Assembly: GCA_026419405.1 (NCBI GenBank)
Contig: JANZZL010000113.1
Coordinates: 1-64,000 of the forward strand
DNA: 64,000 nt
Reading direction: 5' to 3'
Source of the DNA: Paracoccaceae bacterium
GTDB taxonomy: Bacteria > Pseudomonadota > Alphaproteobacteria > Rhodobacterales > Rhodobacteraceae
Position 1 is the stretch's first letter; every line of letters begins with the position of its first letter. The position numbers and the translations under genes were made by a program. The notes under the pieces were generated by a model. That model was not told the DNA's origin. It saw only the letters and a list, made by a program, of their open reading frames with translations, and ran no database searches. Shown piece after piece: positions 44,726 to 48,014 of the stretch.

Positions 44726-45181
44726 TCAGGCCACCCGCCTGACCGGGAAGGGGACGGCGGGCGCCGCGGCGGCGGGCCGCGCCCCGGCGCGCGGCACCTC
44801 GCGCCCGTCGGCCGGAAAGGGCGCGCGGTAGAGCAGCGTGAGGTCCTCGACCGTCACGCCGAGGCGGGCGAGCGGAAGGAGCCGCCGTTCCAGCGGCCAG
44901 GTGTGGATCCACACCCGCCCCTCGACCGCGCGCAGCACGAAGCCCTGCGCCCGGAGCCGGCGCTGGAGGTCGGGCCAGTCGGCGGCTTCGGCGAAGTCGC
45001 GCCGCAGCGCGCGGCGCAGGGTGGAGACGGCATCGCCGGCGCCGCTGGCGGCGGCCACCCGTTCGGCCAGAGCGGCACGGATGAAGTCGCCCGCCGTCAT
45101 CTCCTCGGCGCGGGCGGCGCGGGCCGCCGCGGCAAGGAGCGGCGCGGGAATGCGGATGGTGACGGTGCGGTCGCCGGACAT
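44726..45181 (-). CDS. Ribbon-helix-helix-like hypothetical protein
   Basis: A 151-residue protein. The first 45 residues (RTVTIRIPAPLLAAAARAARAE, then MTAGDFIRAALAERV) look like a ribbon-helix-helix DNA-binding strand-helix-helix. Residues about 65-110 form an unrecognised mixed region (LQRRLRAQGFVLRAVEGRVWIHTW), perhaps a short alpha/beta module similar to those in relaxase-associated proteins. The tail is Ala/Pro-rich. It converges on asd with a 15-bp gap. The 290-bp stretch upstream holds no gene. Confidence 0.65.
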   Translation of the reverse strand: MSGDRTVTIRIPAPLLAAAARAARAEEMTAGDFIRAALAERVAAASGAGDAVSTLRRALRRDFAEAADWPDLQRRLRAQGFVLRAVEGRVWIHTWPLERRLLPLARLGVTVEDLTLLYRAPFPADGREVPRAGARPAAAAPAVPFPVRRVA

Positions 45182-45471: not shown

Positions 45472-45780
45472 TCAGAACCGCTCGGCGCGCAGCACCTGGC
45501 AGTCGGTGACGCAGACGACGCCCATGTGCCGCTCCACCACCCGGAAGGCGGCGTCGAGCAGCCCCTCGACCCGCTCGGGGCGGACGATGCAGATCACCGC
45601 CACCATGCCGGAGCGGCCGACCTGCCCCTCGCGGCTCCACAGGCCCGACCGGCCCGAGCCGCCGAGCACCGGCAGGATGGTGAAGCCGGTCACGCCCGCG
45701 TCGATCAGCGCGGCGGTCAGCCTTCCCTCCATCGGGGCCTCGATGATGATCTCGACGCGCTTGGCCTGGTGCATCTGCAT
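45472..45780 (-). CDS. SbtB-like PII-family regulatory protein
   Basis: A 102-residue protein with the PII fold (AKRVEIIIEAPMEGRLTAAL first strand-helix; VVAVICIVRPERVEGLLDAAF second). Its T-loop region GGSGRSGLWSREGQVGRSG is short and lacks the Tyr that is uridylylated in GlnB. In cyanobacteria SbtB binds cAMP/AMP and gates the SbtA transporter; here the SbtA-like gene is 3 bp upstream. The cyanobacterial C-terminal CGPxGC redox motif is missing; the protein ends CVTDCQVLRAERF. A Met two residues in (45774) is an alternative start. Confidence 0.85.
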   Translation of the reverse strand: MQMHQAKRVEIIIEAPMEGRLTAALIDAGVTGFTILPVLGGSGRSGLWSREGQVGRSGMVAVICIVRPERVEGLLDAAFRVVERHMGVVCVTDCQVLRAERF

Positions 45781-45783
45781 GGC

Positions 45784-46761
45784 TCAGCCTCCGGTCGCGG
45801 CCTGGGCGAGCGCGAGATAGATCGGGATGCCCAGCGTCAGGTTGAAGGGGAAGGTCACGCCGAGCGACAGCGTGAGGTAGATGGAGGGGTTCGCGTCGGG
45901 GAGCGCGACGCGCATCGCCGCCGGCACCGCGATGTAGGAGGACGAGGCGGCGAGCGTCATCAGCAGCATCACGCCGCCGGGCGAGAGGCCGAGGGCGAGG
46001 GCTGCGGCGAGCCCCGCCGACGCGCCCGCAAGCGGCATGACGAGGCCGAAGCCGAAGGCGCCGGCCGAGAGCACGCCGCGCGCGCCCCTGAGCCCGCGGC
46101 CGGCGACCAGCCCCATGTCGAGCAGGAACAGGCAGAGCACCCCCTGGAAGGGCGCGTCGATGAAGCTGGCGATGCGCCGGAACCCCTCCTCGCCGGTCAG
46201 CAGGCCGATGCCGAAGGCGCCGACGAGCAGCACGATGGAGCCGTTGAGCAGGACCTCGCGCATCAGCTCGCCGTCCTCCTCGCGCCGGCCGCCGGCGCGG
46301 GCCACCAGCCAGAGCGCCGAGAGGATCGCGGGTGCCTCCATCGCCGCGGCGACGGCGACCATGTAGCCCTCGGAGCCGATCCCGCGCGCGGCGAGGACGG
46401 AGGAGGCGGCCACGAAGGTGACGATGGAGATCGACCCGTAGTGCGCGGCCACGGCGGCGGCATCGGTCGCCGAGAGGCGCGTCATCAGCCTCAGCAGCGC
46501 GAAGGCGACGAAGGGCAGCAGGAACGACAGCGCCACCCCGGCGACGAGCGAGGTGAGCAGCGTCGCATCCGCCCCGTGCCGGGCGACGCTGGCGCCGCCC
46601 TTGAAGCCGATGGCGAAGAGCAGGTAGATCGACAGCCCCTTGGCCACCGCCTCGGGCACCGAGAGGTCGGACCGCGCCAGCGCCGCGAAGAGGCCGAGCG
46701 CGAAGGACAGGATGATCGGCGAGATCAGGTTGTCGGCCGCAAGCGCGAGAATGCCGTCCAT
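45784..46761 (-). CDS. SbtA-like sodium-dependent bicarbonate transporter
   Basis: A 325-residue membrane protein with about ten hydrophobic segments, of the SbtA (DUF897) family. Helices 1-5 and 6-10 show the two inverted halves: NLISPIILSFALGLFAAL then LSIYLLFAIGFKGG, and later AHYGSISIVTFVAASSVL and YIAVPAAMRVALPDANPSIYLTLSLGVTFPFN split across the last helices. SbtA takes up bicarbonate with sodium in cyanobacteria; heterotroph members are less studied. It lies 72 bp after a carbonic anhydrase gene on the same strand. The ATG (MDGILALAADN) is chosen over a longer low-complexity frame. Confidence 0.88.
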   Translation of the reverse strand: MDGILALAADNLISPIILSFALGLFAALARSDLSVPEAVAKGLSIYLLFAIGFKGGASVARHGADATLLTSLVAGVALSFLLPFVAFALLRLMTRLSATDAAAVAAHYGSISIVTFVAASSVLAARGIGSEGYMVAVAAAMEAPAILSALWLVARAGGRREEDGELMREVLLNGSIVLLVGAFGIGLLTGEEGFRRIASFIDAPFQGVLCLFLLDMGLVAGRGLRGARGVLSAGAFGFGLVMPLAGASAGLAAALALGLSPGGVMLLMTLAASSSYIAVPAAMRVALPDANPSIYLTLSLGVTFPFNLTLGIPIYLALAQAATGG

Positions 46762-46833
46762 CCGCCCCCCCGTCTTCCCCGTGGCGCCCGTGCTAGGGCG
46801 CGGCGGGCGGGAAGGCAAGCCCGCAGGCGCGCC

Positions 46834-47484
46834 TCAGATCGCCTCGAAGCCGCGGTCCTCGCCCATGAACTGCTCGAGCCGCCCCTCGCCGATGTCGTGC
46901 CACAGGCCGTGGATCTTGAGATCCTCCTTCTCGACCGATTCGGCGACGAAGGGGAAACTCAGCAGGTTGCGCATGGAAACGATGACCGCCTCCTTCTCGA
47001 GCGCGGTCTGCCGCCGGGCGGCGTCGGCGATCGAGGCCACGCGGTCGAATCCGGGGCGCAGGATCTCGAGCCAGCGGCCGACGAAGCTCTCGCCGCGCTC
47101 GAGTTCGGGCGCCAGGCCGAGGCACATCTCCTGGCAGCCGCGCACCCCGCCGCAGTCGGAATGGCCGAGCACGATGAGATGCGCCACGCGCAGCACGGTG
47201 ACGGCGTATTCCACCGCCGCCGAGGTGCCGTGCGGGTCGCCGTCGGGGTCGTAGGGCGGCACGAGGTTGGCGATGTTGCGGTGGATGAAGATCTCGCCCG
47301 TGTCGGCCTCGAACATCGAGGAGATGTGCACCCGGCTGTCGCAGCAGGCGACCACCATCACCCGCGGGCGCTGCCCGTCGCGGGCAAGCCGGCGATACCA
47401 GCCCTTGTTGTCGGCATAGGCCGTGGCCTTCCAGCCGCGGTAGCGCTGGACGAGATAGCCCGGCAAGGGCCTGATGCGGTGCAT
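46834..47484 (-). CDS. Beta-carbonic anhydrase
   Basis: A 216-residue zinc enzyme interconverting CO2 and bicarbonate. The active-site motifs are ACCDSRVHISSMF (zinc Cys and the Asp-Arg dyad) and GHSDCGGVRG (zinc His and Cys). FIHRNIANLVPPYD is also typical. It is the first gene of a likely operon with SbtA- and SbtB-like genes, so it may balance imported bicarbonate. No signal peptide is seen, so a cytosolic location is likely. Confidence 0.95.
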   Translation of the reverse strand: MHRIRPLPGYLVQRYRGWKATAYADNKGWYRRLARDGQRPRVMVVACCDSRVHISSMFEADTGEIFIHRNIANLVPPYDPDGDPHGTSAAVEYAVTVLRVAHLIVLGHSDCGGVRGCQEMCLGLAPELERGESFVGRWLEILRPGFDRVASIADAARRQTALEKEAVIVSMRNLLSFPFVAESVEKEDLKIHGLWHDIGEGRLEQFMGEDRGFEAI

Positions 47485-47589: not shown

Positions 47590-47633
47590 CAATGACGCGC
47601 GTGGGTTCGGGTGTGCGACGCGAGGGGATCTGC

Positions 47634-48014
47634 ATGACGCGAATGACACGGCTGAGACCGGAGGAGTCGATCCGGCTGGAGCGCGAGCAGCTGGCGGCGC
47701 TCTATGCCTCGGTGGGCAAGGCGCAGGCCGAGGAGATCATCTGCCGCGCGATGGAGGAGCTGGCCACCCGGCTTGCCCTGATGGAGCGCGCCCATGCCGC
47801 GGGCGAGCTGGCGGCGCTGGCCAAGGGCGCGCGCGGGCTGGCGGCGATCGCGGGACAGGTGGGCATGACCACGCTGGCGCGCGTGACCGGCGACGTGGCG
47901 GCCTGCGCCGAGCGGCGCGATGCGGCCGCGCTGGGCGCCACGCTGGCGCGGCTGATCCGCATCAGCGACCGCTCGCTGACCGCGATCTGGGACACCGCCG
48001 GGACCTCGGGCTGA
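47634..48014 (+). CDS. Small helical (HPt-like) hypothetical protein
   Basis: A 126-residue protein predicted all-helical. Residues about 55-110 recall a histidine-phosphotransfer bundle (LAKGARGLAAIAGQVGMTTLARV), but no phosphorylatable His occupies the expected place, so a phosphorelay role is doubtful. The ATG at 47634 has GAGG 8 bp upstream. An ATG at 47592 lies just past the inverted repeat and has a weaker site. It converges on the transglycosylase gene (12 bp gap). Confidence 0.65.
   Translation: MTRMTRLRPEESIRLEREQLAALYASVGKAQAEEIICRAMEELATRLALMERAHAAGELAALAKGARGLAAIAGQVGMTTLARVTGDVAACAERRDAAALGATLARLIRISDRSLTAIWDTAGTSG

Follow-up and report, generated by a model that had tools for sequence, protein, structure and literature searches.

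The closest described counterparts of the genes considered here are the cyanobacterial bicarbonate transporter SbtA, its PII-like partner SbtB, and CPII of Thiomonas intermedia. The roles of residues in the SbtA bicarbonate/Na+ site are taken from work on the Synechocystis protein, in which replacement of S114, Y140, S324 or S327 by alanine leaves, in each case, 10–40% of the activity (PMC8352866). The C-terminal R-loop motif of SbtB, CGPxGC, is missing from about 50% of 460 cyanobacterial SbtBs and is therefore not strictly defining for the family; forms without the R-loop are reported to respond mainly to the cellular energy state (PMC10991534). CPII is called carboxysome-associated in the title of Wheatley 2016 (cited in PMC6458275), and the PDB titles of its structures name ADP, AMP and bicarbonate as ligands.

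SbtA-like proteins are already known from heterotrophs as well (PMC10117731; PMC10030771). In 'Candidatus Phycosocius', a bacterium lacking RuBisCO, Sbt is proposed, without test, to take up bicarbonate for anaplerosis (PMC10008586). Such a role has a physiological precedent: R. denitrificans, an aerobic anoxygenic phototroph without a Calvin cycle, derives 10–15% of its protein carbon from CO2 via anaplerosis (PMC2749216).

Here we investigate a carbonic anhydrase (CA)-SbtA-SbtB locus in the window, by which we mean the whole stretch of 64,000 nucleotides that was analysed. Its features, in the order of transcription, are:

46834–47484, minus strand: beta-carbonic anhydrase, 216 aa (Pfam Pro_CA, 2.1e-42)
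46762–46833, minus strand: spacer from the CA stop to the SbtA start, 72 bp, without a terminator-like site
45784–46761, minus strand: SbtA-family transporter ("class I"), 325 aa (Pfam Sbt_1, 2.4e-112)
45781–45783, minus strand: spacer from the SbtA stop to the SbtB start, 3 bp, as in a tight operon
45472–45780, minus strand: SbtB/CPII-type PII-like protein, 102 aa (Pfam P-II, 9.5e-15)

The original prediction, that the three genes are co-oriented with short gaps, is borne out by these positions. A purine-rich stretch lies upstream of all three start codons. A scan of the operon region found neither promoter nor terminator, and no terminator-like site between the genes, although a sigma-70 consensus scan is a poor test at the 72.5% GC of the window. 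Two other genes adjoin the locus. On the plus strand at 47592–48014, next to the CA gene and divergently transcribed, is a 140-aa protein without a Pfam match that is kept beside CA across the Rhodobacteraceae at 25–54% identity. Downstream of the operon at 44726–45181, on the minus strand, is a 151-aa gene whose N-terminal part weakly matches YlcI/YnfO; only a few relatives have it close to SbtB.

The transporter matches the Sbt_1 profile over its full length (375.7 bits against a cut-off of 27, positions 1–308 of 308). At 325 aa, against 374 aa in Synechocystis SbtA, it lacks about 50 residues, chiefly in the cytoplasmic loop region. The top PDB matches of its predicted model (pLDDT 86.5) are all five SbtA structures, at TM 0.82–0.89, followed by bile-acid symporters; against 7cye and 8zor the TM is 0.87–0.89, and the model has the 10-TM, 5+5 inverted-repeat fold. 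On an alignment of about 27% identity to Synechocystis SbtA, and in the numbering of that protein, two of the four ligands of the docked HCO3- are kept, S114 and S324 (window S112 and S275). The other two, Y140 and S327, are both alanine (A138 and A278), so we file the protein as a transporter of the Sbt_1 family and not as a proven SbtA orthologue. D325 is replaced by tyrosine (Y276), and the S322 position beside the Na+ site is kept. All 46 class I proteins surveyed share the pocket replacements, with one gap at position 140; substrate or affinity may therefore differ from those of Synechocystis SbtA. The family also contains a second Sbt class, with 16 sequences at about 30% identity, in which all the cyanobacterial pocket residues are retained, and some of its genomes carry both classes. 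From the modelled fold, the class I transporter is predicted to carry HCO3- and to import it.

The PII-like protein also has a well-predicted model (pLDDT 90.6), with the PII-type ferredoxin-like fold and SbtB structures among its matches, and its gene lies beside sbtA. It is nearer to CPII than to SbtB. A profile built from 39 PII-like relatives finds Thiomonas CPII first (5d4n, 8.4e-16), ahead of Cyanobium SbtB (1.3e-9) and Synechocystis SbtB (1.1e-6), and fold ranking of the model likewise places 5d4n first, at TM 0.85 and 33% identity, with the SbtBs at 13–19% identity. This kinship, like the two replaced bicarbonate contacts of the transporter, was missed in the original prediction. That the protein lacks CGPxGC was correctly noted there: it ends ...LRAERF, the absence is general among its relatives, and the family alignment stops at the same residue. 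The conclusion drawn from it, that regulation probably differs, is weak, since about half of the 460 cyanobacterial SbtBs (PMC10991534) do without the motif too, and lacking it is not by itself a sign of unusual regulation.

Two further sequence features of the PII-like protein were considered. The T-loop motif R43xxR46, needed for apyrase activity, reads R44-S-G-L47 in the window, and arginine stands at position 47 in 20 of 77 PII-like sequences, in a region where the T-loop alignment is uncertain. Redox control through other cysteines was rejected: C64 is conserved (67/77), but being single and not C-terminal it is no substitute for the R-loop. Within the PII-like family (the window and loci L003–L081) W48 is invariant and C64 near-constant, features not shared by CPII in the alignments examined.

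The third protein is a beta-CA by its Pro_CA fold and its CxDxR and HxxC motifs. The zinc-site motifs are intact (C47-C-D-S-R51 and H108-S-D-C-G), with the residues kept in an alignment of 34 sequences, and plant-type beta-CAs are the closest solved structures (1ekj, 2.8e-33). It is the single beta-CA found in the genome. No alpha-CA was found, which leaves it alone among the alpha and beta classes, the two that the search covered.

The host genome, 95.6% complete with 4–5% missing, has pufL and pufM, pyruvate carboxylase and two further PII genes. RuBisCO has no match in it, and phosphoribulokinase no convincing one, the best hit to the PRK family (21 bits) being too weak to count. Judged by these Calvin-cycle and phototrophy genes, the host looks more like a photoheterotroph of the anoxygenic kind than like an autotroph, and neither enzyme expected of an autotrophic CO2-concentrating mechanism, form I/II RuBisCO or phosphoribulokinase, was convincingly found in the genome as assembled.

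Is the grouping of these three genes a peculiarity of this genome? Among 80 relatives found by peptide patterns taken from the query, a PII gene is directly downstream of SbtA in 76. A beta-CA on the strand of the pair precedes it in 22 relatives and follows it in 8 (and in 1 more farther off); in 2 the beta-CA is divergent. Conservation in a set found in this way is biased, and the survey was therefore repeated on profile hits, with one genome for each of 198 genera of the same family. In the 46 genera with a class I SbtA, a PII gene accompanies it in 45 and a beta-CA lies within the flank examined in 33; in the window and 27 loci of this survey the CA gene immediately precedes SbtA on its strand. 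The CA-SbtA-SbtB arrangement is more than chance. Two beta-CA lineages adjoin the pair, one upstream in Rhodobacteraceae and one downstream in Stappiaceae/Thalassospira. In the CA tree they fall in separate parts, split by a branch with 100/99 support, in a tree whose bootstrap had not settled and which has some long branches; this suggests that CA was recruited beside SbtA-SbtB more than once.

Other Sbt genes of the family have different surroundings. Eight genera form a class I-like sister branch, closest to locus L071, in which SbtA has no SbtB neighbour and pufLM is not enriched (2/8). The second Sbt class (loci L141–L155) is hardly ever next to an SbtB gene; about half of its loci have a LysR-type gene about 1 kb upstream in divergent orientation, and 16 of its 17 host genera have pufLM. 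One genome, G181, has an alpha-carboxysome locus with CsoS2 and CsoSCA (locus L134, G181:C1:66000-84000) that includes its own Sbt and PII-like genes, and carries elsewhere a window-type SbtA-PII pair and a class II Sbt.

If class I SbtA served CO2 fixation by the Calvin cycle, does its distribution follow RuBisCO? Over the 198 genera, form I/II RuBisCO (matches below about 255 bits, form IV and weaker RuBisCO-like, being left out of the tally) accompanies class I SbtA in 5 of 46, against 7.2 expected (p 0.36). Corrected for the tree, the two are equally unassociated (Pagel LR 3.7, p 0.45; independent pairs 3:1). For pufLM the count is 38 of 46 against 19.5 expected, with p 3.6e-10 before phylogenetic correction. 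On a tree of a single gene, gltB, with 121 genomes, which leaves out 9 of the 46 class I genera (gltB unlisted), in which SbtA-negative genomes were thinned by hand and habitat was no covariate, the Pagel dependent model wins (LR 33.7, chi-square p 8.4e-7). None of 100 null simulations under independence reaches this LR, the maximum being 23.4. In 31 independent pairs of SbtA-positive and SbtA-negative genomes, pufLM is present in the positive partner alone in 20 and in the negative alone in 3 (p 0.0005).

The association is not a tie to phototrophy, since 8 of the 46 class I genera are without pufLM. Distances between SbtA sequences correlate only moderately with those of gltB (Mantel 0.32, 2 of 999), which makes it likely that SbtA has been inherited but also transferred or lost. 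Regional co-inheritance is a partial confounder, because class I SbtA lies 34–340 kb from pufM in nine of the ten same-contig cases checked, the tenth being at 1.2 Mb. A common lifestyle in sunlit, alkaline, CO2-poor water could also produce the association.

On balance we lean towards the explanation that the three-gene operon keeps the cytoplasmic bicarbonate pool filled for anaplerotic carboxylases, the host being an anoxygenic photoheterotroph that lacks the Calvin cycle. With no Calvin-cycle enzyme seen and light-harvesting genes present, the module probably feeds ordinary carboxylation and not autotrophic growth. At the level of prediction for transport, its direction and substrate, ligand binding and regulation, the mechanism would run as follows. 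The SbtA-family protein would use an elevator mechanism to import HCO3- together with Na+, as its fold implies. The cytoplasmic beta-CA would equilibrate CO2 and HCO3-, trapping CO2 that diffuses in or is freed by catabolism. The PII-like protein, presumably a trimer, may sense adenine nucleotides and possibly bicarbonate, like CPII, and its T-loop would dock on the cytoplasmic face of SbtA, blocking uptake at low energy or when bicarbonate is plentiful. The bicarbonate could then be used by pyruvate carboxylase and by other biotin-dependent or amidotransferase carboxylases.

Several points count against this explanation. Half of the docking residues are replaced, eight class I genera manage without pufLM, and lifestyle and co-inheritance confound the association. 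For R. denitrificans, malic enzyme was credited with most of the anaplerotic flux, and extra CO2 brought no gain in growth (PMC2749216). A cytoplasmic CA beside an importer also risks futile leakage of HCO3-/CO2. A more specific version can be offered tentatively: a RuBisCO-independent module for the acquisition of inorganic carbon in anoxygenic photoheterotrophs, in which a CPII-type sensor would gate an Sbt with an altered pocket, light energy would drive bicarbonate into anaplerosis, and the operon CA would be the main HCO3-/CO2 equilibrator. All of these details together are less probable than the broader explanation.

The rival that survives best, though we think it rather doubtful, is that the module does general housekeeping for bicarbonate and pH in water that is alkaline and poor in CO2, with the pufLM link due to habitat or regional co-inheritance alone. 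SbtA genes do follow habitats in which HCO3- dominates dissolved inorganic carbon (PMC10880623), Sbt is also carried by SAR11 members, for which growth on inorganic carbon is not known (PMC10030771), and the class I genera lacking pufLM fit it. The rival is harder to reconcile with the independent pairs, of which 20 of the 23 informative ones favour the pufLM association, in a comparison not matched for habitat.

The transporter might instead move a different small anion (formate or some other carboxylate) or act in export, with CA and PII tying it to pH or C1 homeostasis and not to bicarbonate supply; we consider this improbable. The idea draws on the Shewanella homologue SO_3758, which confers formate tolerance and for which the authors favour efflux (PMC12093963), and on the loss of Y140 and S327 from class I in a family whose class II keeps the whole pocket, at times in the same genome. 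However, the pocket assignment depends on the alignment of about 27% identity, and a beta-CA neighbour from two CA lineages fits HCO3-/CO2 as the substrate. The Sbt that adjoins the alpha-carboxysome of G181 shares S114, S324 and Y325 with the window protein, which argues that a class I-type pocket can still serve bicarbonate.

Least probable by far is a CO2-concentrating module of a facultative autotroph, in which SbtA raises HCO3- and CA supplies CO2 to RuBisCO: cyanobacterial SbtA-SbtB have that role (PMC8352866) and a different Sbt-PII pair adjoins the carboxysome of G181, but that genome has the window-type pair besides, and facultative autotrophy was rejected on the gene content of the 95.6%-complete host genome and on the failure of class I SbtA to track RuBisCO across the family. 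Of the original prediction, the conserved module is supported, made up of a transporter of the SbtA family, a PII protein of SbtB/CPII type and a beta-CA; the autotrophic role suggested for it is not. An SbtA-SbtB pair should not be taken as a marker of autotrophy, and an operon of CA, transporter and sensor that is conserved and goes with photosynthesis genes, not RuBisCO, offers a concrete gene set for deletion.

How does the locus compare with the known systems? With Synechocystis SbtA (Slr1512; 7cye, 7egl; TC 2.A.83) the window transporter shares a full-length Sbt_1 domain, the 5+5 fold (TM 0.87), S114, S324 and S322, and a PII-like gene next to it; it differs in length, in sequence, in carrying A, Y and A for Y140, D325 and S327, and in a host without RuBisCO. 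Cyanobacterial SbtB (Synechocystis 5o3p/7egk; Cyanobium 6mm2/6ntb) has the same PII fold and a gene directly behind sbtA, and the Cyanobium protein, like that of the window, has no R-loop and aligns through the last residue. SbtB is nevertheless a weaker match than CPII, has R43xxR46 in place of R44-S-G-L47, and does not share the invariant W48 of the window group. Thiomonas CPII (5d4l–5d4p, 5drk, 5ds7) is the closest to the window PII by both sequence and fold; CPII is described as carboxysome-associated, whereas the window PII has no carboxysome or RuBisCO locus in a genome without RuBisCO, and its ligand binding is predicted.

The alpha-carboxysome-linked pair of G181 resembles the window in having an Sbt_1 gene followed by a P-II-type gene and a class I-like pocket (S114, S324, Y325), but it adjoins CsoS2 and CsoSCA, its PII is 27% identical over 74 residues, and it is a separate paralogue. 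'Candidatus Phycosocius' shares with the window an Sbt in aerobic anoxygenic phototrophic Alphaproteobacteria lacking RuBisCO, and the passage that proposes its role describes neither a CA-SbtA-SbtB operon nor a PII partner and makes no comparison across genomes (PMC10008586). No paper linking SbtA with the photosynthesis gene cluster was found in the literature searched, which is not proof of novelty. CPII and SbtB are themselves already known; what seems new here is their relative in an operon with CA, the altered transporter pocket, and the tree-corrected link to pufLM and not to RuBisCO.
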